Shown here: one piece after another, positions 1 through 63,054 of the stretch | How the letters are laid out: each line of letters starts with the position of its first letter | How positions within the stretch are numbered: the stretch's first letter is position 1 | Assembly: GCA_029582155.1 (NCBI GenBank) | Contig: CM055903.1 | Coordinates: 35,816,353 to 35,880,352 of the forward strand | DNA length: 64,000 nucleotides | DNA from: Panopea generosa | Lineage: Eukaryota > Mollusca > Bivalvia > Adapedonta > Hiatellidae | Direction: 5' to 3' | The notes under the pieces: generated by a model | Seen by the model: the letters and a program-made list of their open reading frames with translations, nothing else | The model's database searches: none | Told to the model about the DNA's origin: nothing | Program-made: the position numbers and the translations under genes

Positions 1-1425
1 AGTAACAATAGCCTGGCAGTGATAAGTTCTCTGGAGACATCAGTTTGCAAGGACGGCTGCCCAGTTTGCCTACACATTCCAGAAATACCTTTTGCCTACA
101 TGGATGGGGAATCCCTTCTCCTCGGAATTTTTTCGGTCCACGAAACAGACCCAAACAATCCTTTCAAATGTGCCAACTTGCGAACATCACAAATGGATGT
201 TATCATTGTAGAAAGTTTTCTTTACACTGTAGAGAGCATGCGTAATGAGACAGGGATAAACTTTGGTGCAGTTGTTATAGATGATTGTTATAGTGCTGCC
301 AGGACAGAATTGGTACTTTCTCAAATTCTTGCAAACAAAGTGAAACTTAAAAAACCTAACTCTGATGAGTTTATTGACATAAGCAAGGTACTGGTAGTTA
401 TTTCATCTCTGGGAAGCACGGTGACCATCCCTGTGACATTGTTACTTGCACAAGTAAATATTCCATCTATATCATCATCGGCTTCGTCGCCAGATTTGGA
501 TGATAGAATAAATTTCCCATATTTTCTTCGCACGGTGCCGAGTGATGTGGAGCAGGTCAAAGCTATGGTGAGCATCATTAAGAAAATGAGATGGGAATAC
601 GTTAGTTTGCTGTATGTGAAGAATAATTATGGTAGTAAAGGTAAAGAAGCATTTCTGCGTATGGCGAATGCCAGTGGTATATGTGTTGCAGATGCTCCAG
701 AAGGAATAACAGCCACGGTTGATAATAAAACTACCAGTGAGCTTAACAGTGTCTTTACAAGATTGATTAACCATCAGTCTGATGTAGTTGTTTACTTTGG
801 AACAGAAGCGCGTATAACAAATTTTCTACAAGTCATGAAGGGAAATATCCCATTCATATTTCTTGGGAGTGAAGACTGGGGAGACAGACAGTATATCCTA
901 GAAATGGGTGGGCAAAATGCAAAAGGAAGTATAACTCTTAAGAATGAAGCAGCAGGACTTTTCGATGATCCATTTAAAGAGTATATAAAATCTGTAAACC
1001 CTAGTACCAATGTCAGAAACCCATGGTTTATAGAATATTGGGAACAAACATTTCAATGTGACTTACCACAAAGCTTTAACAATAAGTATAATAAATTATG
1101 TGATCCTAATCGCCGATTTACAGATGAAACTGTGCAAGAGTTCTTGAAGGATCAGAGAATTGTACATACAGTTGACTCTGTCAAAGCAGTGGCAAAGGGG
1201 TTAAAAGTTTCGAAAACAAAAATTTGTAATTTTGATAGTTTTCCTTGCTCAAAATATTTTCAATATATAGATATTGTGGTAAAAAATATCCGAGAAGTTA
1301 CAATTAACCGTGATGGGCAGGAAGTCAGAGTCTTCAAAGAGGATGGAAATGGAAATGTTGGTTTTGGAATAAATAATGTCCAGGATATATATGTCGATGG
1401 GAAAGTAAATTTGGACTATGTAACG
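1..1425 (+). CDS. mGluR-like Venus-flytrap receptor, exon 1 (partial at 5' end)
   Basis: The reading frame is open from base 1, so the signal peptide and first residues lie upstream of the window. The 475 codons encode an extracellular class C GPCR ligand-binding domain (ANF_receptor/Venus flytrap type). Landmarks matching metabotropic glutamate receptors are LLGIFSVHE near residues 40-48, VPSD near 179-182, NNYG near 208-211, GSEDW near 289-293 and RNPWF near 339-343. Paired cysteines near residues 20 and 57 fit the family. The exon ends in phase 0 at a strong donor (ACG|GTAAGT, 1426). Retained intron would add 13 codons and a stop at 1465-1467, giving a soluble domain. The substrate is inferred to be a small amino-acid-like ligand. 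Class assignment is firm; ligand is not known. Confidence 0.9.
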
Positions 1426-1756
1426 GTAAGTGCAACAAACATTATGATGGAAATTATATCTATGTAAAGGGAGAAAACTGAAAATGAAAAATGTTCTGTG
1501 TACATTACTGATGATGTCAATATGTTTACATTTTTGGCATTGTTGTGGTAGTGCTTCTTGTAGAGACATTGGCATAATTGTACTACACGTATGTGCTGAC
1601 ACTAAAAGGACTGGATTTGTAAAAAAAGTTAAATATCACCTGTTCAATGAATCAGTTGTAGTAATTATATTAATTTTAAAGTAGCAAAACTACTTGGAAG
1701 CACATCTCAGAAGTGAAAAATTGTCTAGAGTCAGCTGGTGATTAAGACGTGTATAA

Positions 1757-4700
1757 AAAATAACTTTCTATGTTCATACATGTATGTTAATGATGACCTC
1801 AATAACCTTTTATGTCCATGTACATTAGGGGCACCACAATAACCTCCTATGTCAATGTACATTAATGATGACCTCCATAACCTTCTATGTTCATGTACAT
1901 TAAGGGCCATCACAATAACCTCCTATGTCCATATACATTAAGGGCCATCACAATAACCATCTATGTCCATGTACATTAGGGGCACCACAATAACCTCATA
2001 TGTCCATGTACATTAATGATGACCTCCATAACCTTCTATGTCCATGTATATTAAGGGCCACTTCAATAATCATCTGTGTCTATGTGCATTAAGGGCCATC
2101 ACAATAACCTCCTATGTCCATGTACATTAGGGGCCATCACAATAAATGTCTAAGCCTATGTACATTAAGGGCCACTTCAATAACCATCTATGTCTATGTA
2201 CATTAAGGGCCATCACAATAAATGTCTAAGCCTATGTACATTAAGGGCCACTTCAATAACCATCTATGTCTATGTACATTAAGGGCCATCACAATAACCT
2301 CCTATGTCCATGTACATTAGGGGCCATCACAATAACTATCTATGTCCATGTACATTAAGGGCCATCACAATAACTGTCTAAGCCCATGTACATTAAGGGC
2401 CACTTCAATAACCATCTATGTCCATGTACATTAGGGGCCATCACAATAAATGTCTAAGCCTATGTACATTAAGGGCCACTTCAATAACCATCTATGTCTA
2501 TGTACATTAAGGGCCATCACAATAACCTCCTATGTCCATGTACATTAGGGGCCATCACAATAACTATCTATGTCCATGTACATTAAGGGCCATCACAATA
2601 ACTGTCTAAGCCCATGTACATTAGGGGCCATCACAATAACCATCTATGTCCATGTACATTAAGGGCCATCACAATAACCATCTTTGTCCATGTACATTAA
2701 GGGCCATCACAATAACTGTCTAAGCCCGTGTACATTAAGGGCCATCACAATAACCATCTATGTCCATGTACATTAAGGGCCACCACAACAACCTCCTATG
2801 TCCATGTACATTAAGGGCCATCACAATAACCTCCTATGTCCATGTACATTAAGGGTCATCACAATAACCATTTATGTCCATGTACATTTAGGGCCACCAC
2901 AATAACCTCCTATGTCCATGTACATTTATGGCCACCTCAACAGTCCTCTATGTCCATGTACATTAAAGGGCCACCACAATAACATCCTAGATCCATGTAC
3001 ATTAAGGGCTACCACAATAACCTCCTATGTCCATGTACATTCAGGGCCACCACAATAACCTTCTATGTCCATGAACATTAATGATGACCTTCATAATCTT
3101 CTATGTCCATGTACATTAAGGGCCATCACAATAACCTTCTATGTCCATGTACATTAAGGGCCATCACAATAACCTTCTATGTCCATGTACATTAAGGGCC
3201 TTCACAATGACCTCCTATGTCAATGTACATTAAGGGCCATCTCTACAACTCCCTATGTCCATGTACAGTAAGGACCACCACAATAACTTCCTTTGTCCGT
3301 GTACATTTAGGATCACCACAATAATCTCCAATATCCATGTATGATAAGGGTCATGACAATAACCTCCTGTGTCCATGTACATTAAGGGCCACCACATTAA
3401 CCCTCTTGGTCTATGTACATTATGGCCACAACAATAACCTCCTGTGTTCATGTACATTAAGGGCAACCACAATAACCTCCTATGTCCATGTACATTTAGG
3501 GCCACCTCAACAATCCTCTATGTCCATGTACATTAAAGGGCCACCACAATAACATCCTAGATCCATGTACATTAATGACAACTTCAACAACATTCTATGT
3601 CCTTGTTCATTAATGACAACCTCAATAACCTCCTATATCTTTGTTCATTTATGACAACCTCAATAACAATGTATGTTAATGATGACCTCAATAATCTTCT
3701 TTGTCCATGTACATTAAGGATCACTTCAGTAACCCCCTATGTCCATGTACATTTACAATAACTTCAATAACTCTTATGTCTATGTACATTAAGGGCCACC
3801 ACAATAATCCCCTATGCCCATGTTCATTGAGGGCCACCACAATAACCCCTTAGGTTCATGTACATTAAGGACCACCACAATAACCTCTTAGGTTCATGTA
3901 CATTAAGGACCACCACAATAACCCCCTAGGCCCATATACATTAAGGGCCACCACAACAACATCCTATGTCCATGTACATTAAGGGCCACCTCAACAGTTC
4001 CCTATGTCAATGTACAGTAAGGGCCACCACAATAACCTTCAATATCCATGTACGTTAAGGGCCATGACAATAACCTCCTATGTCCATGTACATTAAGGGC
4101 CACCCCTTCTATGTTCATGTATATAAAGGCCTCCTCAATAACACCTAACATCCATATACAATGATGACAACCTCAATAACCCCCTATATTGATGTACATT
4201 CATAACAACTTCTTGTACATTATAATGAACCCAATAGCCTCCTATGTTCTCATACATTAAGACTCCAGTAACCTCCTATGTACATAAAAACATCAACCTG
4301 AATAACCCCTTTGTCCTTGTACATTACTGACACCTACATAACCTCCTATGTCCTTGTTCATTCATGACAACCTCATTAACCTCCTATGTCCTTGTTCATT
4401 AATGTCAACCTCAATAATATTCTATGTACATTAATAACAACCATAATAACCCCTATGTCCTTGTACATTAATGACAATCTCAATAACTTCCTATGTCATT
4501 GCTCATTAATGACAATCTCAATAATCTCCTATATACATTAATAACAACCACAATAACCCCTATGTCCTTGTACATTGATGACAACAGCTATAACGTCCTA
4601 TGTCCTTGTACATTAATGACAACCTCAATAACTCCCTATATCCTTGTACATTAATGACAACCTCAATAGCTCCCTATATCCTTGTACATTAATGATGACC

Positions 4701-5035
4701 TCAATAACCCCTATGTCCTTGTATGTTGATGACACCAATGTCCTTGTACATTAATGACAACCTCAATAACATTCTATGTCCTTGTTCATTAATGACAACC
4801 TCAATAACTCCCTATGTCCTTCTATGTTAATGACACATATGTCCTTGTACATTAATGACAACCTCAATAACCCTTTGTCCTTGTACATTAATGACAACCT
4901 CAATAACTCCTAAGTCCTTGTACATTAATGATGACCTCAATAACCTCCAATGTCTTTGTGCATTAATGACTACCTAAATATTCCCTTATGTCTATGTACG
5001 TTAATGACAACCTCTATGATGTCCTGGTATGTTAA
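1757..5035. repeat. 38-bp minisatellite in intron 1
   Basis: About 85 imperfect copies of a 38-bp unit of the type TATGTCCATGTACATTAAGG followed by GCCATCACAATAACCTCC. Neighbouring copies at 3101 and 3139 confirm the period. The left and middle parts use the AAGGGCCA(T/C)CACAATAA variant. From about 4290 the unit drifts to TCCTTGTACATTAATGACAACC. There are no unique spacers and no gene; the whole array is within intron 1 of the receptor. Confidence 0.95.
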
Positions 5036-6504
5036 AGATGTCATTATTAATGTGCTGGGTGATAATGCTGCAGAGGCAATAAAATATTTATGAAATTGTC
5101 AATGATCAGGTAAATAAGGCCTGTGTCTTATGTGTCACTCCTCTCCATTGAAGCTCGAAGGTAAAAAAATAATGAAATACAAATGAAATAAAGTAGTTCC
5201 TTGTGTACATACACATTAATGATGACATCAATATATTCGCTATTTGTGCAATATTTGGTGTTAATTCCTTAGCGCAAAGATTTGAGACATAATCGTAAAT
5301 GTGGTAGGAGCATGGGCCAAGCTAGGGTACAAATCCTTGAAGTGACAAAAAATATTTCTGAAATTGCTCGTGGTCAGGTGTCGCTCCTATACAATACAGA
5401 TGAACTGTTTGTCTAGATTGAGGCACCTTTATGTCTGATTGGTATATGTGCCAGGTGTGTTAGAAAAATATGTGAACTTCTGTAATATTTTAAACATTTA
5501 CTATACTGGTATCACATGATTAAGAAATATATTCCGATAAAAAGCAATCTTTCTTCTATGCAACTGCCAAATTTCATATAAATATTGAATACAGTTACAT
5601 GTCGCTAGAAAATATACATGTAATGGCTACCCAGAACAGCCCAACTGGAGGCTGATAATGACTTGTTCAAGTGGCTTCTGATAATTGTATAGCAATATAT
5701 ACTGGGTGTAATAAACAGTAACAATAATAAATAATAAAAAGAAATTGTAAAGAATATCAAATGAGATATTATTTAGTTTATCAGAATTTGGTAAATTTTT
5801 TATGTATTCTGTCTCAATTGTTACTATAACTTATATAATGTGTAGTGTGTGGTCTAGTGGTAGAGCTTCGTACCCAGGAACTGAGGGTTGTGCGTTTGAT
5901 CATCGGTGCCTTGACCTTGCATAGTGTCCTGCCGTAAATGCCCAGTACTGATTCTACCCAGGAAGACTGATTAGAAATTGTTTCACATTCAATGTAAAAT
6001 AAATATCATTATAACTATTATAATTACGTCAAAGTCAAACATAGATGAGGTAACCCTTGTTTAAACCGTTATATCAATATTTGTTTTTATATTTGTTCTT
6101 TAAATAAATTCTAGCTTAAGTTCAATGCTACAACCCACTAAAGTGTTATAAAAGCCAGTTATGAATATGATATTTTAACAAATGTAAGATAATGTGCCTT
6201 TTTAATCTATTTGCATTTAAACTTTAAAGCATTAATGGATATTTGACTTTAAGTACAATTGCCTTCCACATCAATGTAGGTCCCTTCTAAATACCAATTC
6301 AGATGGCAGGATTTGTTGCATTGTATGCATAAGAAAGCTTTTATACAAACAGTGTTAAATAGTGTTACAAAGGCCCTACTACCAGATCCCACATAAAGGA
6401 ATATTTTAGGACCATCTCATCTGTGTGACAATTTGGCAATGATGTGTTAATACTATTTTATAAAAAGACTTACTAACAATAAATTATTTGATATTCTGGT
6501 AACA
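5036..6504. other. Unique intron sequence between two arrays
   Basis: AT-rich intron 1 sequence of the receptor gene. It contains no convincing exon. One SINE-like insertion is described separately. Confidence 0.7.
5846..6003 (+). mobile_element. tRNA-derived SINE-like element, copy 1
   Basis: The head has an A-box-like TGGTCTAGTGGTAGAGC and a degenerate B-box-like GTGCGTTTGATCATC. The body shares CCCAGTACTGATTCTACCCA and the TTGTTTCACATTCAA tail with the copy at 12525. It lies in receptor intron 1 in the same orientation as the gene. Confidence 0.6.
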
Positions 6505-9500
6505 TCATGTTGGATATTTACACAGTAGGTTGAATGTATAAACAGTTGGTTGGATATGAGCTGTAGGTTGGGTGTATAAACAGTGTTTTGGATATAAAAA
6601 GGAGGTTAGATGTATAAACGGTAGGTTGGATATATAAATAACATGTTGGATATATAAACAGTAGGTTGGATGTATAAATAACATGTTGCATATATAAACA
6701 GTAGATTGGATGTATAAATAACATGTTGGATATATAAATAGTAGGTTGGATATATAAATAACATGTTGGGTGTATAACCAGTAGGTTGGATATATAAATA
6801 ACATGTTGGATGTATAAACCGTAGGTTGGGTGTAAAAACAGTAGGTTGGGTGTATAAACAGTAGGTAGGATATACAAATAACATGTTTGATGTATAAACA
6901 GTCAGCTGGGTGTATAAACAGTAGGTTGGCTATATAAACAGTTGGTTAGATATATAAATACCATGTTGGATGTATAAACAGTAGGTTGGATATATAAATA
7001 ACATGTTGGGTGTATAACCAGTAGGTTGGATATATAAATAACATGTTGGATGTATAAACAGTAGGTTGGATATATAAATAACATGTTGGGTGTATAACAA
7101 GTAGGTTGGATATATAAATAACATGTTGGGTGTATAAAAAGTAGGTTGGGTGTAAAAACAGTAGATTTGTTGCACAACAGTAGGTTGGATATATAAATAA
7201 CATGTGGGATGTATAAACAGTAGGTTGGATGTATAAACAGTAGGTTTGATATATAAACAACATGTTGGATGTATAAACAGTAGGTTGGATGTATAAACAA
7301 TAGGTTTGATATATAAATAACATGTTGGATGTGTAAACAGTAGGTTGGATGTATAAGCAGTAGGTTGGATATATAAACAGTAGATTGGTTGTACAAACAG
7401 TAGGTTGGATATATAAATAACATGTGGGATGTATAAACAGTAGGTTGGATGTATAAACAGTAGGTTTGATATATAAACAACATATTGGATGTATAAACAG
7501 TAGGTGAGATGTATAAACAATAGGTTTGATATATAAATAACATGTTGGATGTGTAAACAGTAGGTTGGATGTTTAAACAGTAGGTTGGATATATAAACAG
7601 AAGATTGACTGTATAAAGAGTATGTTTGATACATAAAAAGTAGGTTAAATATAAAAACAGTAGGTTGGATGTATAACAGTATGTTGGATATATATAAACA
7701 GTAGGTTGGATATATAAAACAGTAGGTTGGATGTATAACCACTAGGTTGGATATTTAAACAGTAAGTTGTATGTATAACCACTAGGTTGGATATATAAAC
7801 AGTAGTTTGGATGTATAAACAGTATGTTGGATATATAAACAGTAGGTTGGATGTATAACCACTAGGTTGGATATATAAACAGTACGTTGGATGTATAAAC
7901 AGTATGTTGTATATATAAACAGTAGGTTGGATGTATAATCACTATGTTGGATATATAAACAGTAGGTTGGATGTATAACCAGTAGGTTGGATATATAAAC
8001 AGTAGGTTGGATGTATAAACAGTATGTTGGATATTTAAGCAGCATGTTGGATATAATCTGGATATATAAACATCATGTTGGATATATACTGGATATATAA
8101 ACAGCATGTTGGATGCAAGCTGGATATATAAACAGCATGTTTGATATATGCTGGATATATAAACAGCATGTTGGATGCATGTTGGATATATAAACAGCAT
8201 GTTTAATATATGCTGGATATACAAACAGAATGTTGGATATATAAACATAATGTTGGATATATGCTGGATATATAAACAGCATGTTAGATATATGCAGGAT
8301 ATATGAACAGCATGTTGGATATATAAACAGCATATTGGGTATATGCAGGTATTTAAAAGCAGCATGTTGGATATATGCAGGATATATAAACAGCATGTTG
8401 AATATATGTTGGATATATAAACAGTATGTTGGATAAATGTTGGATATATAAACAGCATGTTGGATATATAAACAGCATATTGGATATATGCATGATATAT
8501 AAATAGTATGTTGGATATATGTTTGATATATAAACATTATGTTGGATATATGTTTGATAAATAAACAGTATGTTGGATATATAAACAGCATATTTGATAT
8601 ATAAACAGTATGTTTGATATATGCAGGATATATTAACAGTATGTTGGATATATAAACAGTATGTTGGATATCTAAACAACATGTTGGGTATATGCATGAT
8701 ATATAAATAGTATGTTGGATATATGTTTGATATATAAACAGTATGTTGGATATATAAACAGCATGTTAGGTATATGCATGATATATAAATAGTATGTTGG
8801 TTATATGTTTGATATATAAACAGCATGTTGGATATATAAACAGTAAGTTTGATATATGCAGGATATATAAACAGTATGTTGGATATATGCTGAATATATA
8901 AACAGTATGTTGGATATATAAACAGTATGTTAGATATATGCTGGATATATAAACAGTTTGTTGAATATATGTTGGATTTATAAACAGTTTGTTGGATATA
9001 TAAATAGAATGTTGGATATATAAACAGTATGTTGGATATTTAAACAGCATGTTGGATATATATCGCATATATAAACAGCATGTCGGATATATAAACAGCA
9101 TGCTGGATATACAAACAGCATGTTGGATATATAAACAGCATGTTTGATATATAAACAGTATGTTAGATATATGCTGGATATATACACAGCATGTTGAATA
9201 TATTTTAAATATATTAACAGTATGTTGGATATATGCTGAATATATAAACAGTATGTTGGATATATAAACAGTATGTTAGATATATGCTGGATATATAAAC
9301 AGCATGTTGAATATATGTTGGATATATAAACAGTATGTTGGATATATGCTGAATATATAAACAGTTTGTTGGATATATAAATAGAATGTTGGATATATAA
9401 ACAGTATGTTGGATATTTGAACAGCATGTTGGATATATGTTGCATATATAAACAGCATGTTGGTTATATAAACAGCATGCTGGATATATAAACAGCATGT

Positions 9501-11065
9501 TGGATATATAAACAGTATGTTTGATTTATAAATAGAATGTTGGATATATAAACAGTATGTTGGATATTTAAACAGCATGTTGGATATATATTGCATATAT
9601 AAACAGCATATTGGATATATAAACAGCATGCTGGATATATAAACAGCATGTTTGATATATAAACAGTATGTTAGATATATGCTGGATATATAAACAGCAT
9701 GTTGAATATATTTTAAATATATTAACAGTATGTTGGATATATGCTGAATATATAAACAGTATGTTGGATATATAAACAGTATGTAAGATATATGCTGGAT
9801 ATATAATCAGCATGTTGAATATATGTTGGATATATAAACAGTATGTTGGATATATGCTAAATATATAAACAGTTTGTTGGATATATAAATATAATGTTGG
9901 ATATATAAACAGTATGTTGGATATTTGAACAGCATGTTGGATATATGTTGCATATATAAACAGCATGTTGGTGATATAAACAGCATGCTGGATATATAAA
10001 CAGCATGTTGGATATATAAACAGCATGTTTGATATATAAACAGTATGTTAAATATATGCTGGATATATAAACAGCATGTTGAATATATTTTAAATATATT
10101 AACAGTATGTTGGATATATGCTGAATATATAAACAGTATGTTGGATATATAAACAGCATGTTGGATATATAAACAGCATATTGGATATATAAACAGTATG
10201 TTTGATATATGCAGGATATATAAACAGTATGTTGGATATATAAACAGTATGTTGGATATATAAACAGCATGTTGGGTATATGTATGATATATAAATAGTA
10301 TGTTGGATATATGTTTGATATATAAACAGTATGTTGGATATATAAACAGCATGATGGATATATAAACAGTAAGTTTGATATATGCAGGATATATAAACAG
10401 TATGTTGGATATATGCTGAATATATAAACAGTTTGTTGGATATATAAATAGAATGTTGGATATATAAACAGTATGTTGGATATTTAAACAGCATGTTGGA
10501 TACATATAAACAGCATGTTGGATATATAAACAGCATGTTGGATATATAAACAGCATGCAGGCTATATAAACAGCATGTTGAATATATGTTTAATATATGA
10601 ATAGTATGTTGGATATATGCTGAATATATAAACAGTATGTTGGATATATAAACAGTATGTTAGATATATGCTGGATATATAAACAGCATGTTGAATATAT
10701 GTTGGATATATAAACAGTATGTTGGATATATAAACAGTTTATTGGATATATAAATAGTATGTTTGATACATAAACAGTATGTTGGATATATAAACAGCAT
10801 GTTTGAATTATGCTGGATATATAAACAGCATGTTGGATATATAAACAGCATGTTGTATATATAAACAGCATGTTAGATATATAAACAGCATGTTGGATAT
10901 ATGCTGGATATATAAACATAATGTTGGATATATACTGGATATATAACAGCATATTTGATATATGTTGGATATATAAACAGAATGTTGGATATATAAACAG
11001 CCTGTTGGATATATGCAGGATATATAAACAGCATGTTGGATATATAAACAGTTTGTTGGATAAAT
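6505..11065. repeat. 20-bp minisatellite rich in TATATAAA, intron 1
   Basis: The unit is GTAGGTTGGATATATAAACA, 20 bp. The left half (to about 8040) alternates GTAGGTTGGATATATAAA with ACATGTTGGATGTATAAA types. The right half uses GCATGTTGGATATATAAACA plus a 31-bp compound unit made by inserting TATATGCTGGA. Over 200 copies are present. The - strand is largely stop-free in all three frames, which creates spurious long frames. The array ends about 410 bp before exon 2. Confidence 0.95.
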
Positions 11066-11478
11066 ACATATATATCGATGGCATTATATGCTTATTTTAT
11101 GAATTGTTATTTGTGTGGATACAGTAAATAAAGCTACATTATACACTGCTTTGCATCATGCATTTTTACATGGTGTTCCTATCCAATTTTTTGACATCTG
11201 GCAAAAAAAATTAAAATAAAAAAAAAATAGTACAGTATTTTATCGTTAACAATGCCTCTTAGAAGTACATATTTTACGGATGAGTTTTGTCAGTTTTTCC
11301 AAAGATTTTAATGCAAAATGACAAAGTTAAAAGCCATTCCCATATTCATCAAACATCTCACTTCATTTTGTACTCCAGCTGAAATTTTTGAACGTATAGA
11401 TACTAGTATGTGATGTTTCACTTGTATACATCTGCAGAATATTTCCCACAGATAACTATCAGTTCTTTTTTTATTAAG
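11066..11478. other. End of intron 1
   Basis: Ordinary AT-rich intron ending in the T-rich tract and AG acceptor of exon 2 (AG at 11477-11478). I see no other feature. Confidence 0.6.
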
Positions 11479-11758
11479 GTCGGCTCATACAAAGAGAGTC
11501 GTTTGAACCTAGATACAACAAAGCTGCATTTTTTTCGTCCAGCCTTTGATGGACAGTGTTCCGGAAGACATTGTAGTCGCTGTGATAACAGTTCTTTACC
11601 GAACACAACTTCTATGGCAACCACAACACACGCACATCCACAGGACGAGGGGTTCGCCACTCCAGACTTCACCATCATTGGAATTCTGGGATTCCTGTTT
11701 GTTGTCATAATAATACTGTGTATTGTCATCATTTGTTACTTCAAAAGAAGGATCACAG
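11479..11758 (+). CDS. mGluR-like receptor, exon 2: domain end, linker and single membrane helix
   Basis: The acceptor TTTTTTATTAAG ends at 11478 and the frame continues exon 1 in phase 0. The junction reads DYVT then VGSYKESRLNLD, which matches the last strand of the flytrap fold in mGluRs. It is followed by a short linker with three cysteines (CSGRHCSRC), an N/S/T-rich glycosylatable stretch, and one strong hydrophobic helix (FTIIGILGFLFVVIIILCIV and on, genomic about 11668-11742). The helix ends in the basic stop-transfer KRR. The usual nine-cysteine domain of mGluRs is absent. The donor is CAG|GCAAGT at 11759, a GC-type site leaving phase 1. Read-through of the donor would stop at 11794-11796 with a tail of about a dozen residues. 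Linkage to exon 1 rests on phase and homology of the junction. Confidence 0.8.
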
Positions 11759-12149
11759 GCAAGTTTCTTTTCTTATATTTAGGTTTTATTTCTTGAATTG
11801 CTTAAAGCCTCGTTAAATTTCTGAAATGCTCAATTTTTGATAATAACAAAACTGATTGTAAGTAAATGTATTTATAATACGTAGTTTTTCTGACTGTCCT
11901 ATGTTTGGAAGTACACAAATTGATATGCACATAAATTAACGTCCATCGCCATTCCAAACAGACTCATGGTTACCCATTTTATGCCAAATGTGTTTAACTG
12001 AAAGAAAAAACCATTGATTTGTAAACAAACACCCAATTGCAATTATTGAAAATAATCCAAATAGGAAAAAATGACTTAAATGTGTTCTTTTTCTTAAATT
12101 GTGTTAAAAATTTCTGTTTGTTTAAGAACCAGTAATTATGTGCTGATTC

Positions 12150-12430
12150 ATACTTGTACCGGTATGTGGTAGTGCTGAGAACCAGTTATGATAATCAACT
12201 GTGTCTGCATTATTGCTGGGAACCAGATTTGGTGCTTAGTTGTACCAGCTATATTATGAACAGTTAGCAGCAGTGCTGCTAAGAACCAGAAATCATGATG
12301 GCCATCTGTATTACAGTAGTACATGTGCTGAGATTGTTAATGCTCTGTTTTTTCTGCAGTATCTCAGGAAGCAAAATTGATTCTGTTTTACCTTCAGTGT
12401 TGCTGAGAACCAGGGATGATGCAGTGTTCC
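12150..12430. repeat. Degenerate tandem repeat around GCTGAGAACCAG
   Basis: The motif GTGCTGAGAACCAG and close variants (GCTGGGAACCAG, GCTAAGAACCAG) recur about four times at irregular spacing of roughly 55-130 bp within intron 2. This looks like an old decayed minisatellite. Confidence 0.5.
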
Positions 12431-12524
12431 ATGTATAAAAATAACTTTTTACAAGTTTAAGCTTTCTCTTTTTGTAGCTTACATCAGCTACAATTTACAA
12501 AATAATCTTAAGTAAAATGTCTTA

Positions 12525-12715
12525 GGAGTGCATGGTCCAGTGGAAGAGCATCGAACCCAGGATCGCAGGGTCAATCCTGCTCCATAGCTATGTGTGATGT
12601 CTTTGAGCAAGACACTTCATCTGCATATGCTTAATACTGGTTCTACACAGGAATGCTTTGATCGTGATTGGTATAAGTTGTTATAATTTGTTTCACAATC
12701 AAAGTAAAGTTAATA
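12525..12715 (+). mobile_element. tRNA-derived SINE-like element, copy 2
   Basis: The head GTGCATGGTCCAGTGGAAGAGC with a B-box-like GGGTCAATCCTG is followed by a body containing GAGCAAGACACTT and TTAATACTGGTTCTACACAG. The end, TTGTTTCACAATCAAAGTAA, matches copy 1. It lies in intron 2, sense orientation. Confidence 0.6.
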
Positions 12716-12808
12716 AGTTTAAACTAAAATGTCTATATTCTATACAAAAACATTCTTCATGCTATTATTGACTTTTGACGTCTTACATATTTCTTTTAAC
12801 TCTTCCAG

Positions 12809-13650
12809 AACTAGAGAAGCTGACAAAGACATCATTTGAGATGTGGACTGGTTATATGGCATCCATGAATGGTTCAGCATCTAATATGCATAGTGCATCA
12901 GTGACCTACCCTGAATTACAGTTCGCAAACACCAGTCCAAGCGGAGATACATTGTATGAGTGGAGAAAAGCTCAGCACCATTTGACTGGTAACGGACACA
13001 TTGCCAATGGGGGTGTAATAAACAAGGCATTTGTGGGCAGTGAAATGTACTCACACACACAGCATACTGAGGATGAAAACCAAAACTATCCAAATACATC
13101 GTCAGCAAATGTTTGTTCAAATACTGGACATTCCTCATCACAAATGGATCAGAGTACGTCACATCTTTTGCCTGAGAAATCTGTATATAAACCATCATCT
13201 AATACTAGTTATGGCTTAAGTTCACACAGCAGCTTCAAGAGACCGTCTGATGCAAATGTTCATGTTAAAAAACAGCCGAGAACTCAACTCGCAGTGCCAC
13301 CATGTAGACCCGAACTTCCGCCACGTGACCAACATCGTCACATGCATACTAACAGACCAAACACATTTCCTGATAATTTTAATCACATATCTTCTGCTGT
13401 ACCAAAGGAAAAAGTTAGAAAAGTAAGAAGTAGTCCTAGGAGAACGGCGCCACCTTCTTTGAAATATAGCCCATCTACGGGAGAAAACTCTAGTTATACA
13501 AATCGAAGGGATATGGAGAGCCCAATGTATAAAGGGTCACCAACAAATATGACGTTCTCAGCAGGTTCAGTGCAACCGAAAGAACAACAAGTGTCGCCAT
13601 CAGGAATGATAAATTTGGCTGGTTCTATGGAAAAAATATCAAGGGTTTAA
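12809..13650 (+). CDS. mGluR-like receptor, exon 3: cytoplasmic tail to stop
   Basis: The acceptor TTCTTTTAACTCTTCCAG ends at 12808. Phase 1 from exon 2 completes a GAA codon and continues ELEKLTKTSFEMW. Exons 1-3 total 2547 nt, exactly 849 codons including the stop, which supports the model. The ~280-residue tail is hydrophilic and rich in Ser, Asn, His and Pro, with no membrane segment, kinase or cyclase signature. It has a class II SH3-type site PELPPR, several Ser-Pro sites and basic patches. It ends in ISRV, which fits the class I PDZ ligand pattern (S/T-x-V). I infer a scaffold-binding tail in place of a catalytic or seven-helix module. An undetected tiny exon between the helix and the tail cannot be excluded. 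Confidence 0.75.
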
Positions 13651-18249: not shown

Positions 18250-20035
18250 CTATTTTCAACACATTTCATGTAATATATGGCATGTCCAATTTTATAGGTG
18301 CAGGAAGGCCGCAGAATGAACATTTCATGTTATATATGGCATGTCCAGTTTTATAGGTGCAGGAAGACCTCAGAATGAACATTTCATGTTAGATATGGCA
18401 TGTCCAGTTTTATAGGTGCAGGAAGACCTCAGAATGAACATTTCATGTTATATATGGCATGTCTAGTTTTATAGCTGCAGGAAGATCGCAGAATGAACAT
18501 TTCATGTCATATATGGCATGTCCATTTTTATAGGTGCAGGAAGACCTCAGAATCAACATTTCATGTTATATATGGCATCTCCAGTTTTATAGGTGCAGGA
18601 AGACCTCAGAATGAACATTTCAGGTTATATATGGCATGTCCAGTTTTATAGGTGCAGGAAGACCTCAGAATAAACATTTCATGTTATATATGGCATGCCC
18701 AGTTTTATAGGTGCATGAAGACCTCAGAATGAACATTTCATGTTATTTATGGCATGTCCAGTTTTATAGGTGCAGGAAGACCTCAGAATGAACATTTCCG
18801 GTTATATATGGCATGTCCAGTTTTATAGGTGCAGGAAGACCTCAGAATGAACATTTCATGTTAGATATGGCATGTCCAGTTTTATAGGTGCAGGAAGACC
18901 TCAGAATGAACATTTCATATTATATATGGCATGTCTAGTTTTATAGCTGCAGGAAGATCGCAGAATGAACATTTCATGTCATATATGGCATGTCCATTTT
19001 TATAGCTGCAGGAAGACCTCAGAATCAACATTTCATGTTATATATGGCATGTCCAGTTTTATAGGTGCAGGAAGACCTCAGAATGAACATTTCCGGTTAT
19101 ATATGGCATCTCCAGTTTTATAGGTGCAGGAAGACCTCAGAATGAACATTTCATGTTAGATATGGCATGTCCAGTTTTATAGGTGCAGGAAGACCTCAGA
19201 ATCAACATTTCATGTTAGATATGGCATGTCCAGTTTTATAGGTGCAGGAAGACCTCAGAATGAACATTTCATATTATATATGGCATGTCTAGTTTTATAG
19301 CTGCAGGAAGATCGCAGAATGAACATTTCATGTCATATATGGCATGTCCATTTTTATAGCTGCAGGAAGACCTCAGAATCAACATTTCATGTTATATATG
19401 GCATGTCCAGTTTTATAGGTGCAGGAAGACCTCAGAATGAACATTTCAGGTTATATATGGCATGTCCAGTTTTATAGGTGCAGGAAGACCTCAGAATAAA
19501 CATTTCATGATTTATATGGCATGTCCAGTTTTATAGGTGCATGAAGACCTCAGAATGAACATTTCATGTTATTTATGGCATGTCCAGTTTTATAGGTGCA
19601 GGAAGACCTCAGAATGAACATTTCCGGTTATATATGGCATGTCCAGTTTTATAGGTGCAGGAAGACCTCAGAATGAACATTTCATGTTATATAAGGCATG
19701 TCCAGTTTTATAGGTGCAGTAAGACCTCAGAATGAACATTTCATGTTATATATGGCATGTCCAGTTTTATAGGTGCAGGAAGACCTCAGAATGAACATTT
19801 CATGTTATACATGGTATGTCCAGTTTTATAGGTGCAGGAAGACCTCAGAATGAACATTTCAGGTTATATATGACATATCCAGTTTTATAGGTACAGGAAG
19901 ACCTTAGAATGAACATTTCATGTTATACATGGCATATCCAGTTTTATAGGTGCAGGAAGACCTCAGAATGAACATTTCAGGTTATATATGACATATCCAG
20001 TTTTATAGGTGCAGGAAGACCTCAGAATGAAGCAT
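18250..20035. repeat. 59-bp minisatellite
   Basis: About 30 copies of a 59-bp unit containing AGGTGCAGGAAGACCTCAGA, ATGAACATTTCATGTTATAT and ATGGCATGTCCAGTTTTAT. Copies starting at 18301 and 18360 set the period. Sub-blocks with shared variants (GAAGATCGCAGAATG, TTTCCGGTTAT) recur about every 470 bp, so blocks of several units were copied together. Confidence 0.95.
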
Positions 20036-21612: not shown

Positions 21613-21737
21613 TATTGCAATAAATACTATGCAAGCTTTTCCGCTACTCATCTGCAACAAGAAATCACTACCCCATATGAACCTTTTTGAAAATATTTCA
21701 AATTAAATTATGAGCAGGTAAGCACAATAGTCATCTT

Positions 21738-23403
21738 ACCCCGGCAAATAAGGGATGCAACTGGGTAGTGAGAGGGACAGGGTAAATAAGGGATGCAACT
21801 GTGTAGTGACAGGGACAGGGCAAATAAGGGACGCAACTGGGTAGTGAGAGGGACAGGGCAAATAAGGGACGCAACTGGGTAGTGAGAGGGACAGGGCACA
21901 TAAGGGACGCAACTGGGTAGTGAGAGGGACAGGGTAAATAAGGGACGCAACTGTGTAGTGAGAGGGACAGGGCAAATAAGGGACGCAACTGGGTAGTGAG
22001 AGGGACAGGGCAAATAAGGGACGCAACTGTGCAGTGAGAGGGACAGGGCAAATAAGGGATGCAACTGTGCAGTGAGAGGGACAGGGCAAATAAGGGACGC
22101 AACTGTGTAGTGAGAGGGAAAGGGTAAATAAGGGACGCAACTGTGCAGTGAGAGGGACAGGGCAAATAAGGGATGCAACTGTGCAGTGAGAGGGACAGGG
22201 CAAATAAGGGACGCAACTGGGTAGTGAGAGGGACAGGGCAAATAAGGGATGCAACTGGGTAGTGAGAGGGACTGGGCAAATAAGGGACACAACCGGGTAG
22301 TGAGAGGGACAGGGCAAATAAGGGTAGCAACTGTGTAGTGAGAGGGACAGGGCAAATAAGGGATGCAACTGTGTAGTGAGAGGGACAGGGCAAATAAGGG
22401 ATGCAACTGTGCAGTGAGAGGGACAGGGCAAATAAGGGATGCAACTTGGTAGTGAGAGGGACTGGGCAAATAAGGGACGCAGCTGTGTAGTGAGAGGGAT
22501 AGGGCAAATAAGGGACGCAACTGTGTAGTGAGAGGGACAGGGCAAATAAGGGATGCAACTGTGTAGTGAGAGGGACAGGGCAAATAAGGGACGCAACTGT
22601 GTAGTGAGAGGGACAGGGTAAATAAGGGACGCAACTGTGTAGTGAGAGGGACAGGGCAAATAAGGGACACAACTGTGTAGTGAGAGGGACATGGCAAATA
22701 AGGGATGCAACTGTGTAGTGAGAGGGACAGGGCAAATAAGGGATGCAACTGGGCAGTGAGAAGGACAGGGAAAATAAGGGATGCAACTGTGTAGTGAGAG
22801 GGACTGGGCAATTAAGGGATGCAACTGGGTAGTGAGAGGTGCAACTGTGTAGTGAGAGGGACATGGCAAATAAGGGATACAACTGTGTAGTGAGAGGGAC
22901 AGGGAAAATAAGGGATGCAACTGGGTAGTGAGAGGGACAGGGCAAATAAGGGATGCAACTGTGTAGTGAGAGGGACAGGGCAAATAAGGGATGCAACTGG
23001 GTAGTGAGAGGTGCAACTGTGTAGTGAGAGGGACAGGGCAAATAAGGGATGCAAATGTGCAGTGAGAGGGACAGGGCAAATAAGGGATGCAATTGTGTAG
23101 TGAGAGGGACAGGGCAAATAAGGGATGCAACTGTGTAGTGAGAGGGACAGGGCAAATAAGGGATGCAAATGTGTAGTGAGAGGGACAGGGCAAAAAAGGG
23201 ATGCAACTGTGTAGTGAGGGCAAATAGGGGATGCAACTGTGTAGTGAGAGGGACAGGGCAAAAAAGGGATGCAACTGTGTAGTGAGGGCAAATAGGGGAT
23301 GCAACTGTGTAGTGAGAGGGACAGGGCAAATAGGGGATGCAACTGTGTAGTGAGAGGGACGGGGCAAATAAGGGATGCAACTGTGTAGTGAGAGGGACAG
23401 GGA
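21738..23403. repeat. 38-bp minisatellite, purine-rich + strand
   Basis: About 43 copies of a 38-bp unit containing GGGATGCAACTGTGTAGTGA and GAGGGACAGGGCAAATAA. Copies at 21751 and 21789 set the period. Shortened units occur at 22840, 23008 and 23215-23290. The - strand has no stop codon in any of the three frames for most of the array, giving artefactual frames of up to 549 codons. Confidence 0.95.
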
Positions 23404-23694
23404 AAAATGCAGGTAAAAATCCTACAGCAAAACTCTATAAAAAAACATGAAATATAATACAGAATTAAATAAGAATTAAATGCAGTCCTAAGAACAAAAT
23501 GATTTCAAATTTAAATTAACTTTAAAATTAAATTCAATAACAAATAATATAATACACATATAAAAGTTATAAACTCATGTAAAATAATATTGCTGCGTCT
23601 GTGATTCAGACAAGGTTGTTTTGCTGTTATACAAATAAATACAATTTAAATGCCATATTATAATATAGGTATCAAAGAATCAATCTATATCTAC

Positions 23695-26471: not shown

Positions 26472-29411
26472 TTATCCTTCCTGGATCTCGTCGTCCAACA
26501 TCGATATTGATCCAATATCCCTTTCTGATAACACTCCAGGAGTTTTCATATCGGGAAAATCTTCAATGTCTACTGTGGTTATATCAATCAAGAGGTCAAT
26601 TTTCGTGGCATCATCTCCAGTATTCGAAATGAACGGTTCATTTTCTTCAAAAACGGGCGTTTCTGGATTAACATCATCGGTGTTACCACTATCTTGGGAT
26701 TTGGACTGATCTGATTTGATTTCGCTCTTTTCGCGTATTTCGGGTGGATTAACAATGATATCGAAAATGGGCCAACATTGCTCGTATGTGTCCAGTATCT
26801 CATTGAGCAATACCTGAAACTGAATGTTAGACGTATCAACAGCTGTCACCGAGTGTGGTTTAAACATGACTTTCCTCAGCATGAATGGCACGAATCCTCC
26901 TGCAATAGTTGCTAATAATTTATTTGTTCCCGAAATTTCATATGTGTCACCAAACGCCATTACTACAACAAGAACAAACATAAGAAAAAGCAAAATAACT
27001 CCAAACTCCATAGTCGCTTTAAGATAATTAATAAGTAATTCACCCGGTGCAGCATAGAACGGCATCTTGCAAGTTCTGAAGTAAAATGTTTTTGGAATAA
27101 GCGGCTCGTCATTTTTACTTAAAAACAACAGCAGGCGAGAAATATTCCACCTTGGATATCCTTCACTATTTTTCGCTAAAATAACACTCGAATCTCTAAC
27201 TTCAGTTCTATCAGTTTTTACTCTAAATGCCAAGTTCTTTTGGTGTTCGGACATTTGATACATTGCATTTTCAACCCTCTCTTTTGTTAAGCCAAGGACA
27301 ACGCCATTCATGGTTTTATTGAAAACTTCAAACTTGTTGCTTACATTTCCGAAACAATCGATTCCGTACATACCCAACAGCAAAACCAACGAAACATAGG
27401 TCAGTGTCGAAGATGCGTTCACTATCAGCCCCATCAGTGTGTATACGAATATCTCCACTGCGAACGATACGAACTCCGTCATGAGGAAAATAACCGAATA
27501 CAAGGATATCAGACAAAATGTTATAATCACCAACTGCTGCAGTCTGTACCATTTTGATTTCAAGATAGCTTCATTCTTTTCTAAGGTTTCGGCAGTAGCA
27601 ACGTTTGCCATTTCGAGCTGTTTTTCTAATCTAGTCAGGAAGTCTCCGAGCCGCTTACAGCATCCATACTTGCCACATGCATCACGTGGTACCAAATATA
27701 CTGCAAAATGAGCCAGTAACCGAAGAGTCACGTTTAATGTAGGAAACATATAAAACGATAACACCAGAATTACTAATGGTAACAGCGGTACCCAAATGAA
27801 AAGTCCAATACAAATTCCTAGTCCTCCAAATAGTGTACATGGTTTGAAGATAACTCGCACAAGCCATCCAATCACATCAATTTTGCTTAGTTCGCGCATG
27901 TCTCTGAAGCACTTCCGGAGAACGAATTTAAATTTTTCTTTGGTCTTTCTTCGAATAACACCAAACACAAATGATTCTATTGACAATAGCAAATATATGG
28001 CAATAAATAAAATATGTAATGGTGTGAGATACAAAGTCACATTTCCGGGGAAGTAGAATTTTAGATTTTTTTCTGATGCCGCCAATTTGCGCATTTGCAT
28101 CTCTGTGTGCTCAAACCGGAAATAAACGTAGACGCGAATTAGCCATGGCAAAGCCAACACTATTAACACCACCACCTTCATCGATTCTTTTAAAAGTCGG
28201 TACCAAGTCAATGTCTTGTTGCAAGAGGACTTCATGAATACATCAGCACTGCAGCAATTCTTGACAGACGAACGTTCTCGGATTTTACATTTAACAAACG
28301 AATCATACAGAGTTTGGAAAAGTCCGACGGGGGCCATTCCTTCTTGCAGCAACCGTTCTTGTTTGATGCGCAGGCAAACATCTTTCAGCGTTATTGAATA
28401 AGGCACTTCCGGGAGCATAGTTGACAGCGTTTTCTTAAACTCTGGCATAAACTTGAACTTAGATAACTTGAATGAATTAACCACGTTGGAAAAACCTTCG
28501 GGGTGTCTTGTTATCACAGTATTCAGTTTCATCGATTTTCCGGGTACAAATGTATATGTAAATGGCGCCGCCGTATGCTTTGTACGGTATAATGAGTCGG
28601 GAACGAATCTAGGACTAAATAATACGACCAAAACCTGCAATACAAGTATAACAGCGAAAAGAACATTCAGCCATATATCTGCTTCCAAATATTGGCATGT
28701 AATATGTAACGAACTTGTTCTCTGACAGCACTGGTATCGGAAATTGGCCGTCCCACGGTCATTCATCACGTGCATGTTACACACGTTGTCGTTGGGTTGC
28801 AGCTGTACGATCTGACCCGAACTTGTGTTCTGAAAATCATTCATAACAAGTTCGCGGACGAGTTGTTCTATATCTGAGTAACTCAATTGATCAAGACAGT
28901 TATGCGGGTATTCTTTCAAAGAAACGTCTTCCGTTACCACACCGAGTTCGAGAGTTGTTAACGACAGTACATCGTAGTCAGGACGCAAAAGAAGCAAACC
29001 GGTACCATGGCGACCAGTGGACCGTACCCAGTAGAACGGCATATATGTTAGGCTCTCATTGTTACCGTAGAACTGTCTAGTTTCCGATTTAGAAATATGA
29101 AGATTAAATTTGATTAACTTCACGCCAGCACTGAGGTGACCCTTGATTTTGTAGGTGATCTCCTCATCCTTGGCAACAAGAGTGCAGTTTTTCATGACGG
29201 ACGCAGCAACGTAGGGGACATCAAGTGATTGTTCAGAAGACCCGGGAAGTGGTTTGAGTATTGTAGTATTGGTAAAGCCTTGTTTTGCTGTCGTCGCTTT
29301 AGCGGTGGTGACATTGCTAGTCCGTGTTTTGGCGGTGGTAACGTTACCCGTCGGAGCAGCTGTTACGAATCCGGTTAACACGATTAAATACAGCACAAGT
29401 GATTTTGTCAT
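26472..29411 (-). CDS. Intronless 979-aa multipass membrane protein, family not recognised
   Basis: One uninterrupted frame from ATG at 29411 to TAG at 26472. Residues 1-19 form a signal peptide (LVLYLIVLTGFVTAA), then a Thr-rich mucin-like stretch (20-50). A Cys-containing ectodomain with several N-glycosylation sites runs to about 243. Hydrophobic helices lie near 247-266, 412-430, 459-484, 528-556, 625-645, 648-665, 668-684, 802-821 and 832-848. The first large loop (270-410) is basic. A cluster PRDACGKYGCC lies near 575-585. The acidic Ser/Asp-rich tail (890-979) is probably cytoplasmic. A splice-acceptor-like TTTCTTTTCAG ends 28 bp before the ATG (AG at 29440-29441), which suggests a non-coding first exon upstream. 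Function is unknown; a surface receptor or transporter-like role would be a guess. Confidence 0.85.
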   Translation of the reverse strand: MTKSLVLYLIVLTGFVTAAPTGNVTTAKTRTSNVTTAKATTAKQGFTNTTILKPLPGSSEQSLDVPYVAASVMKNCTLVAKDEEITYKIKGHLSAGVKLIKFNLHISKSETRQFYGNNESLTYMPFYWVRSTGRHGTGLLLLRPDYDVLSLTTLELGVVTEDVSLKEYPHNCLDQLSYSDIEQLVRELVMNDFQNTSSGQIVQLQPNDNVCNMHVMNDRGTANFRYQCCQRTSSLHITCQYLEADIWLNVLFAVILVLQVLVVLFSPRFVPDSLYRTKHTAAPFTYTFVPGKSMKLNTVITRHPEGFSNVVNSFKLSKFKFMPEFKKTLSTMLPEVPYSITLKDVCLRIKQERLLQEGMAPVGLFQTLYDSFVKCKIRERSSVKNCCSADVFMKSSCNKTLTWYRLLKESMKVVVLIVLALPWLIRVYVYFRFEHTEMQMRKLAASEKNLKFYFPGNVTLYLTPLHILFIAIYLLLSIESFVFGVIRRKTKEKFKFVLRKCFRDMRELSKIDVIGWLVRVIFKPCTLFGGLGICIGLFIWVPLLPLVILVLSFYMFPTLNVTLRLLAHFAVYLVPRDACGKYGCCKRLGDFLTRLEKQLEMANVATAETLEKNEAILKSKWYRLQQLVIITFCLISLYSVIFLMTEFVSFAVEIFVYTLMGLIVNASSTLTYVSLVLLLGMYGIDCFGNVSNKFEVFNKTMNGVVLGLTKERVENAMYQMSEHQKNLAFRVKTDRTEVRDSSVILAKNSEGYPRWNISRLLLFLSKNDEPLIPKTFYFRTCKMPFYAAPGELLINYLKATMEFGVILLFLMFVLVVVMAFGDTYEISGTNKLLATIAGGFVPFMLRKVMFKPHSVTAVDTSNIQFQVLLNEILDTYEQCWPIFDIIVNPPEIREKSEIKSDQSKSQDSGNTDDVNPETPVFEENEPFISNTGDDATKIDLLIDITTVDIEDFPDMKTPGVLSERDIGSISMLDDEIQEG

Positions 29412-29441
29412 AGTGGCAACTTATAATACCGGATAGTGTCT

Positions 29442-33700: not shown

Positions 33701-34829
33701 CCATCAAGTCACATTATACTGACACCGGGCCGATCAGGTCTAGAACACTGACACACTGGAGTACCATGCCGCAGATATATGGTATGATACCCCATCCAGT
33801 CACATGCTACTGACACCGGGCCGATCAGACCTAGAACACTAACACACTGGAGTACCATGCCGCAGATATATGGTATGATACACCATCAAGTCACATTATA
33901 CTGACACCGGGCCGATCAGGTCTAGAACACTGATACACTTGAGTACCATGCCGCAGATACATGGTATGATACCCCATCCAGTCATATTATACTGACACCG
34001 GGCCTGTCAGACCTAGAACACTGACACTTGAAGTACCATGCCGCAGATACATGGTATGATACCCCATCCAGTCATATTATACTGACACCGGGCCGATCAG
34101 GTCTAGAACACTGACACACTGGAGTACTATGCCGCAGATACATGGTATGATACTCCATCCAGTCACATTATACTGACACCGGGCCTATCAGACCTAGAAC
34201 ACTGACACATTGAAGTACCATGCCGCAGATAAATGGTATGATACCCCATCCAGTCACATTATACTGACACCGGGCCGATCAGACCTAAAACACTGACACA
34301 TTGAAGTACCATGCCGCAGATAAATGGTATGATACCCCATCCAGTCCCATTATACTGACACCGGGCCTATCAGACCTAGAACACTGACACATTAAAGTAC
34401 CATGCCGCAGATACATGGTATGATACCCCATCCAGTCACATTATACTGACACCGGGCCTATCAGACCTGGAACACTGACACATTGAAGTACCATGCTGCA
34501 GATTAATGGTATGATACCCCATCCAGTCACATTATACTGACACCGGGCCGATCAGACCTAGAACACTGACACATTGAAGTACCATGCCGCAGATAAATGG
34601 TATGATACCCCATCCAGTCACATTATACTGACACCGGGCCTATCAGACCTAGAACACTGACACATTGAAGTACCATGCCGCAGATAAATGGTATGATAAC
34701 CCATCCTGTCACATTATACTGATACCGGGCCTATCAGACCTAGAACACTGACACACTGAAGTACCATGCCGCAGATAAATGGTATGATACCCAATCCAGT
34801 AACATTATACTGACACAGGGCCGATCAGA

Positions 34830-40131: not shown

Positions 40132-40960
40132 CCTAGAACACTGACACACTGAAGTACCATGCCGCACATAAATGGTATGATACCCCATCAAGTCACATTA
40201 AACTGACACAGGGCCGATCAGACCTAGAACACTGACACACTGAAGTACCATGCCGCAGATAAATGGTATGATACCCCATCCAGTCACATTATACTGACAC
40301 CGGGCCGATCAGACCTAGAACACTGACACACTAAAGTACCATGCTGCAGATAAATGGTATGATACCCCATCCAGTCACATTATACTGACACCGGGCCGAT
40401 CAGACCTAGAACACTGACACACTGAAGTACCATGCCGCAGATAAATGGTATGATACCCCATCCAGTCACATTATACTGACACCGGACCGATCAGACCTAG
40501 AACACTGACACACTAGAGTACCATGCCGCAGATACATGGTATGATACCCCATCCAGTCGTATTATACTGACACCGGGCCGATCAGACCTAGAACACTGAC
40601 ACACTGGAGTACCATGCCGCAGATATATGGTATGATACCCCATCCAGTCACATTAAACTGACATCGGGCCGATCAGACCTAGAACACTGACACACTGGAG
40701 TACCATGCCGCAGATACATGGTATGATACCCCATCCAGTCACATTATACTGACACCGGGCCTATCAGACCTAGAACACTGACACACTGGAGTACCATGCC
40801 GCAGATACATGGTATGATACCCCATCCAGTCACATTATACTGACACCGGGCCTATCAGACCTAGAACACTGACACACTGGAGTACCATGCCGCAGATACA
40901 TGGTATGATACCCCATCCAGTCACATTATACTGACAGCGGGTCGATCAGACCTCGAACTA

Positions 40961-62497: not shown

Positions 62498-63054
62498 GTT
62501 TATCATATCGTTTATGAAGCAACAAACTGATAAGGAAACTGCTTTAATATTTTATATTAATAGTGTTTATAGTTACACAATATATAGCAATCATAATTGA
62601 CGGCTTATTCCATTTAAATACAGTTTTGATCTAATATTCAGTTTATAATAAATGTCGGCGCACGCAACTGTCTGCGATTCTATTTTTTACTGCTCAGCGA
62701 CTCATTCCTGTAAACGCTACCTCTGTGATATGTAGGTCACAATAATTTTAACTTGTTCCTAATATATGCTTCTACCTTTACTAAAACAAACAAATGTGGG
62801 ATACTATCGTCATATTGGTTATGGGTGCGTGGTCGCGCGCATTTGTGTATATATAGTTAAACGTTTTAGTTAGTAATATTTTACAGTAGGTTTCTCAATC
62901 TGTCTGCAGTATTTTATATATAGAAAATTGTTTTTTCTTGTGTTGTCTTTTTTTTTTTCATTTATTATTGTCCTCTGATGAAGGCGTAGATCCGAAAGCT
63001 AGCTAATGATATCTCGTTATATGTTTTAGCAATGTAAAATGGTTATTGTCCCTA

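Follow-up and report, generated by a model that had tools for sequence, protein, structure and literature searches.

A predicted tandem-flytrap receptor with one membrane helix and a long cytoplasmic tail in the bivalve Panopea generosa

The stretch analysed here, which we call the window, is 64,000 nucleotides of the bivalve Panopea generosa (assembly GCA_029582155.1, contig CM055903.1, here C10; C10:35816353-35880352), from a genome of 1.47 Gb in 39 contigs. A gene that enters the window from upstream very probably encodes, judging by its sequence, a single-pass receptor with two flytraps in tandem (VFT1 and VFT2), a likely signal peptide, a remnant of the class C cysteine-rich domain (CRD), one transmembrane helix and a tail of about 285 residues. 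The textbook class C receptor has one flytrap per subunit, set on a seven-helix core. Our best explanation, to which we give a probability of roughly one half, is that the product is an amino-acid sensor which acts by itself or as a co-receptor and signals through partners of its tail. A first-pass annotation of the window had described a gene of three exons for one glutamate-receptor-like flytrap, a linker, one helix and a long tail. Its exons and their join, the flytrap type, the single helix, the long tail and the lack of a seven-helix core or catalytic domain all held, but the extent of the gene, the number of flytraps and the linker length did not. If our reading is true, two flytraps in series on one helix, in two diverged copies, would mean that the flytrap was copied and came to be linked to a different output, which would offer a test bed for signalling by flytrap closure without a G-protein core.

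The three exons inside the window (Table 1) join as annotated, giving 2547 nt, i.e., 849 codons including the stop, or 848 residues. Exons 1 and 3 have open runs far longer than chance would give, of 475 and 292 codons, each reached by 0 of 2000 Markov shuffles of the region. Exon 2 is weak when taken alone, its 129-codon run being reached in 25 of 2000. Exon 1 ends in phase 0 at the donor ACG/GTAAGT. Its junction with exon 2 rests on homology, because the acceptor at 11479 best fits the continuation of metabotropic glutamate receptors (mGluRs) 1 and 5: scored against that continuation, it reached 33 and the next best 13, among 343 open AG acceptors in 1446-26000 (the whole window holds 2058 such acceptors on both strands). 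Exon 2 starts there (TATTAAG/GTCGGC) and opens with VGSYKESRLNLD, which continues the mGluR ligand domain and has VGTWHEGVLNID as its mGluR1 counterpart. It ends at a GC donor, CAG/GCAAGT; a GT donor 24 nt further keeps the frame and gives a slightly longer open join, and exon 2 may end at either. Exon 3 begins after TCTTCCAG. Codon-usage scoring of exons 2 and 3 was dropped, as it did not separate the reading frame from other frames, some of which scored higher.

The gene is not contained in these three exons, as had been annotated: the window cuts it, with at least four more exons upstream and a start about 30 kb upstream. The mGluR1 ligand domain matched two same-strand places in the upstream 120 kb (E 0.010 and 0.085), both within exons of VFT1. 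Exons A, B and C joined match Pfam ANF_receptor at 82.5 bits (cut-off 25.4; E 3.9e-23) and, among PDB entries, mGluR7 at E 5e-12; A and B alone still give 59.6 bits, and exon C alone had no ANF_receptor match up to E 0.1. By these matches, the three exons encode a second flytrap, VFT1, where one flytrap had been described. One hidden Markov model search had a model that included the VFT1 exons, so it is not evidence for them. Exon 1 probably begins at -32 in phase 0, joining VFT1 to VFT2 (negative coordinates run upstream from 0, the base just ahead of window base 1, so this lies 33 bases before the window). There it follows TATATTTCAG and opens IGEYRNDTF, the counterpart of VGSYKES and VGTWHEG. 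With the gene's own exon 2 among the references, this acceptor ranked first of 676 over 10 codons and first of 515 over 19 codons.

The 5' end is assigned to exon N, which has two in-frame starts and a hydrophobic leader, followed by CGTSVSQAAIQNIAVMKWAVDRIN, which resembles mGluR1 (score 42, reached by 0 of 2000 shuffles). Against three other flytraps of the genome, its scores were reached by 184, 74 and 8 of 2000 shuffles. Exon N ends in phase 1, the phase in which exon A begins, and it likely supplies the signal peptide. Two earlier scans for a signal-peptide exon had assumed a phase-0 end; one gave no candidate and the other 15 unconvincing ones. All seven of the exons used are open.

VFT2 is of the mGluR type, as annotated. 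Exon 1 matches mGluR5 in the PDB at E 2.3e-49, improving to E 1.2e-52 when exon 2 is added, with the match extending into exon 2, and among solved structures VFT2 is closest to mGluR5 and mGluR1. Searched against Pfam up to E 1, the scope of all the family results below for this protein, the joined 848 residues match six families: ANF_receptor (115 bits, E 5.2e-33), the overlapping Peripla_BP_6 (38.4 bits, above its cut-off) and four that fall below their cut-offs. There is no NCD3G, 7tm_3, kinase or cyclase family among them, in line with the annotated absence of a nine-cysteine domain, a seven-helix core and a catalytic domain. A tblastn search with the CRD and seven helices of mGluR1 likewise found nothing significant in the window (best E 0.2), and no match at E 1 or better in the 284 kb around it. 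An AlphaFold model of exon 1 alone had a mean pLDDT of 34 and was discarded.

The linker had been put at about 35 residues; it is about 50 and still contains the beginning of the class C cysteine-rich region (VGSYKESRLNLD...QCSGRHCSRC), with only three linker cysteines in place of the nine-cysteine domain. The joined protein likely has one transmembrane helix, as annotated: Kyte-Doolittle hydropathy over 19 residues exceeds 1.6 in windows starting at residues 533-552, with a peak of 3.54. Weaker windows, starting at 127 and 129-132 (peak 2.04), lie within the flytrap. Comparison with the class C helices gave no clear sign that this helix derives from helix 1: helix 1 was the best of the seven, yet with P 0.067, and the score of 38 here against some class C helix compares with 36 and 40 for two of eight control helices. 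The tail counts 286 residues (about 280 had been annotated) and is without any Pfam domain. It holds PELPPR and ends in SRV, which fit SH3- and PDZ-ligand patterns, as candidate motifs only.

A second gene has the same layout. Searching the genome with exon 1 gave at least 35 matches including itself (70 of 70 candidates were scored), 23 of them of at least 300 residues; besides the window gene, two places of 20 kb each were read, C10:11.848-11.868 Mb and C6:45.165-45.185 Mb. The first holds a paralog at C10:11.86 Mb, in which VFT1 is covered from the position of exon B and VFT2 occupies a single exon; separate exons encode VGSYTKDGKL with cysteines, the helix and the tail, and the N-terminal end was not seen. 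The alignment of the paralog's 1301 residues with the window gene is collinear between VFT1 and the helix, both included, and has 26% identity in 919 columns (E 3e-90, no filters applied). In both genes the borders before the exon B position (where the paralog's VFT1 exon begins, in the same phase), before VFT2 and before the linker are in phase 0, and the border between helix and tail is in phase 1. In a tree of nine rows, the two VFT1s group at 85/89 on an unstarred branch, which fits a tandem layout that predates the split of the paralogs. By this alignment, the layout of VFT1, VFT2, cysteine stalk, one helix and long tail with phase-0 module borders is that of a family with at least two genes in this genome. 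On the strand of the paralog, the next 10 Mb downstream also hold no 7tm_3 match, and a paralog of the same layout argues for a true gene product without seven helices rather than a fragment of a seven-helix gene.

Several observations weigh against the tandem-flytrap reading or parts of it. Exon N is weakly supported: it reached only E 2.6 in an open-reading-frame scan, has no Pfam match, and its score against the gene's own VFT2 was reached by 1940 of 2000 shuffles. One VFT1 exon between N and A, for about 55 residues (mGluR1 about 102-158), escaped detection; a search by phase and splice sites left four candidates, none convincing. With mGluR references only, the -32 acceptor ranks second of 676. 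The paralog's exons are cut differently, with B and C in one exon and linker and helix in two. In the tree, the VFT1 pair carries a long-branch warning, no branch is starred, and the two VFT2s do not pair. The tails, of 286 residues in the window gene and 449 in the paralog, are not convincingly alike (best local match within them E 0.002, low-complexity filter off), and that of the paralog is also without a Pfam domain. Tails and end motifs differ (SRV versus FII), so the comparison shows no conserved effector site. Finally, VFT2 has no counterpart of mGluR1 Cys140, the dimer-linking cysteine.

The ligand pockets were compared by alignment to mGluR1, whose numbering we use. VFT2 carries S at S165, S at T188, D at D208, Y at Y236, E at D318, R at R323, R at K409, I at R78 and T at E292; at Y74 it has M in one alignment and Q in another. 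VFT1 keeps S165, T188, D208, Y236 and D318, and has D at R323, N or a gap at K409 and, in one alignment, N at R78. The paralog's VFT2 repeats the S, S, D, Y and E of the window gene, with R at 409 and T at 78. The contacts to an alpha-amino acid appear mostly kept in both flytraps, and that of Arg78, the site of Arg68 in mGluR3, appears lost. As for the contacts to glutamate in VFT2, Lys409 is conservatively replaced by Arg and Arg78 is lost (Ile). Because of this Ile, glutamate is an unlikely ligand; the annotated glutamate-receptor-like domain stands as an mGluR-type flytrap, though probably not as a site for glutamate itself.

As an amino-acid sensor, the receptor might work as follows. A ligand of amino-acid type other than glutamate would close one or both flytraps, and the stacked flytraps of a dimer would re-orient upon closure. 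This movement would be transmitted via the short cysteine stalk and the single helix; C228 (the mGluR1 C254 position) and the three linker cysteines may pair, locking the stalk to lobe 2. The tail would then recruit cytoplasmic partners, for which PDZ or SH3 proteins are candidates. The receptor could act alone or as a subunit alongside a class C receptor with seven helices, and direct coupling to a G protein would not be expected.

Known systems share parts of this architecture. Compared with mGluR1 and mGluR5, group I class C G-protein-coupled receptors (GPCRs), VFT2 aligns over its full length (157 of 499 columns identical to mGluR1) and keeps the cysteines at mGluR1 67, 109, 254, 378, 394, 432 and 439 and the start of the CRD. 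The differences are the two tandem flytraps, the lack of a full nine-cysteine domain and of seven helices, and the loss of Arg78 and Cys140. Natriuretic peptide/guanylate cyclase receptors carry kinase-homology and cyclase domains, whereas the window protein has no kinase or cyclase family. Venus kinase receptors (VKRs) have a flytrap, one helix and an amino-acid ligand (PMC3703292, PMC2680970), but their flytrap is GABA-B-like and joined to a tyrosine kinase (PMC2680970), and no kinase family is present here.

Beyond the natriuretic and VKR types, which the first-pass annotation had taken as the other one-helix flytrap receptors, published precedents for a flytrap receptor that lacks the seven helices are SmGBP, from a flatworm, and the human mGlu3delta4. 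SmGBP of Schistosoma mansoni is a truncated mGluR of 488 residues with homologues in S. japonicum and Schmidtea; it binds glutamate and is membrane-associated (PMC3206071). Like the window gene, it is an mGluR-type flytrap encoded in the genome without CRD and seven helices; unlike it, SmGBP has one flytrap, lacks the CRD, seven-helix and C-terminal domains, has a hydrophobic stretch only at its N terminus, and keeps Arg68 of mGluR3 (PMC3206071), whose counterpart is lost here. The two flytraps, the helix and the tail of the window gene set it apart from SmGBP, which has one flytrap and no C-terminal helix or tail. mGlu3delta4 is also an mGluR flytrap without seven helices that is found in membranes and interacts with the canonical receptor, but it is a splice isoform of a seven-helix gene with one truncated flytrap and a novel C terminus (PMC5714154). 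Two flytraps or a long tail are described there for neither SmGBP (PMC3206071) nor mGlu3delta4 (PMC5714154). We noticed no eukaryotic tandem-flytrap receptor in the portions of the open-access literature seen; tandem flytraps led there to the bacterial sensor kinases BvgS and EvgS, being stated for BvgS, with a histidine kinase as output, and we claim no kinship with them.

The alternative that survives best, possible although we doubt it, is a regulatory subunit that pairs via its flytraps with a seven-helix class C receptor (an mGluR or a multi-flytrap GPCR) and tunes its trafficking or ligand response, with the tail only anchoring or localising it. There is a precedent in mGlu3delta4, which co-precipitates with mGlu3 and lowers its ligand binding (PMC5714154). 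Possible partners exist, as the genome has 30 7tm_3 matches (20 above the cut-off, 8 of those 20 with internal stops), and the nearness of VFT2 to mGluR5 and mGluR1 is consistent with such pairing. However, mGlu3delta4 is a splice form of one gene, whereas here we see a separate gene type with two diverged paralogs, and the sequence indicates no partner.

Less probable still is a ligand sink or uptake receptor (decoy), whose flytraps would capture extracellular amino acids or small molecules and whose tail would drive endocytosis. The absence of a catalytic domain fits, as does one site in the tail, YPEL, which resembles the YxxPhi pattern. Retention of intron 1 also bears on this, since exon 1 would read on to a stop at 1467 (window 1-1467) and yield a helix-less flytrap protein. 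Against this reading, just one short match represents the sorting-like motif, and the paralog's one match (YAHI) lies elsewhere in its tail.

It is very unlikely that exons 1 and 2 belong to an ordinary seven-helix receptor and are spliced to CRD and seven-helix exons elsewhere, with exon 3 as a minor ending. A flytrap match on the same contig (C10:26067235) does have a 7tm_3 match 49 kb downstream, but the 284 kb around the window hold no CRD or seven helices, the contig has its next same-strand 7tm_3 match 25 Mb further downstream, and the paralog has helix and tail exons of its own with no 7tm_3 match in the downstream span given above. A decaying gene, or a natriuretic peptide receptor without its cyclase or a VKR without its kinase, is just as improbable: natriuretic peptide receptors are single-pass flytrap receptors, and exon 2 has a GC donor and exon C weak donors, but all seven exons are open. 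VKRs too are single-pass flytrap receptors (PMC3703292, PMC2680970), but VFT2 is mGluR-like, whereas VKR flytraps are said to group near GABA-B (PMC2680970); the motif GY(V/I)WFLPxWL, given as present in most VKRs (PMC3703292), is not in the 848-residue protein, to which the search was confined; and mGluR1 K509 in that paper (PMC3703292; we read it as Lys409), Tyr in non-lepidopteran VKRs, is Arg here.

The other place that was read, C6:45165001-45185000 on the minus strand, shows a series of at least four flytrap blocks, all on one strand, with a 7tm_3 domain (103.9 bits) behind them. We infer that the blocks and the domain form one gene, which would probably be a multi-flytrap class C GPCR. 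It shares with the window gene serial flytrap modules with phase-0 borders starting [VI]G (here VGKY, IGKY and VGSQ, found by a search for that pattern) and differs in having at least four flytraps and the 7tm_3 domain. The cluster contains two more 7tm_3 matches with upstream flytrap matches, at C6:45.07 and 45.10 Mb. Genome-wide, for 18 of the 35 flytrap matches, and for 13 of the 23 large ones, the 100 kb downstream hold no 7tm_3 match on the same strand. By the latter count, the non-GPCR branch may outnumber the GPCR branch, with the output end read for two of the 13 (the window gene and C10:11.86 Mb) and the remainder possibly other kinds of receptor. We tentatively suggest, with clear reserve, a separate receptor class in this animal lineage, in which flytrap modules are shuffled serially as exons and the output end is exchanged (two flytraps with a helix and scaffold tail versus at least four flytraps with a seven-helix core). 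Large flytrap matches that lack a 7tm_3 match in the 100 kb downstream lie at C1:76.85-79.5 Mb, C15:11.7 and 13.6 Mb, C18:33.32 Mb and C1:12.66 Mb; four such C1 matches have a second, shorter match about 1.3 kb away. Pattern searches with exon 1 gave 3 matches in viral contigs and 22 in prokaryote genomes, none of them a relative.

Table 1. Features of the predicted receptor gene, in window positions unless a contig is given (window-relative positions in brackets)
Feature	Position	Strand	Description
Exon N	C10:35786169-35786469 (-30183 to -29883)	+	start, leader, first part of flytrap 1; ends in phase 1
Exon A	C10:35799274-35799431 (-17078 to -16921)	+	phase 1 to 0
Exon B	C10:35800540-35800686 (-15812 to -15666)	+	phase 0 to 0
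Exon C	C10:35802286-35802969 (-14066 to -13383, or -13401 with the other weak donor)	+	phase 0
Exon 1, part in window	1..1425	+	end of cysteine link (CKDGCPVC), then entire flytrap 2 (VFT2) within one exon
Intron 1	1426..11478	+	mostly minisatellites (about 1796-5014 and 6507-11066)
Exon 2	11479..11758	+	VGSYKESRLNLD (end of class C ligand domain), QCSGRHCSRC cysteine remnant, S/T-rich stalk, single helix, GC donor
Linker cysteines 502, 507, 510	11557..11583	+	read as remnant of the start of the nine-cysteine domain
Single transmembrane helix (likely)	11668..11739	+	about residues 539-562, Kyte-Doolittle; positions counted from the cysteine list
Exon 3	12809..13650	+	cytoplasmic tail and stop; no Pfam domain
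PELPPR	13309..13326	+	matches class II SH3-ligand pattern (candidate)
C-terminal SRV	13639..13647	+	matches class I PDZ-ligand pattern (candidate); paralog ends in FII

Elsewhere in the window, the minus strand at 26472-29420 holds an open frame of 982 codons. By eye it has a leader and several hydrophobic stretches and might be an intronless gene for a multi-pass membrane protein; Pfam gave it no family above cut-off. At 63107-63998, and in a 2929-nt stretch outside the window, open frames resemble pieces of reverse transcriptase by eye; the two pieces in the window had no Pfam match at E 0.01. Very long minisatellites lie at 1796-5014, 6507-11066, 18261-20031, 21743-23406, 30863-40958 and 61903-62498, with units of about 38, 20, 59, 38, 91 and 35 bp, respectively. 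The long open frames of the minus strand near 6500-11100 and 21700-23500 fall in such repeats. Upstream of the window, an 80-bp minisatellite at -21840 to -17060 has a unit that by eye resembles the border between intron and exon A (TTATACAGGTATAATTGGGACATC), as though the edge of an exon had been multiplied.

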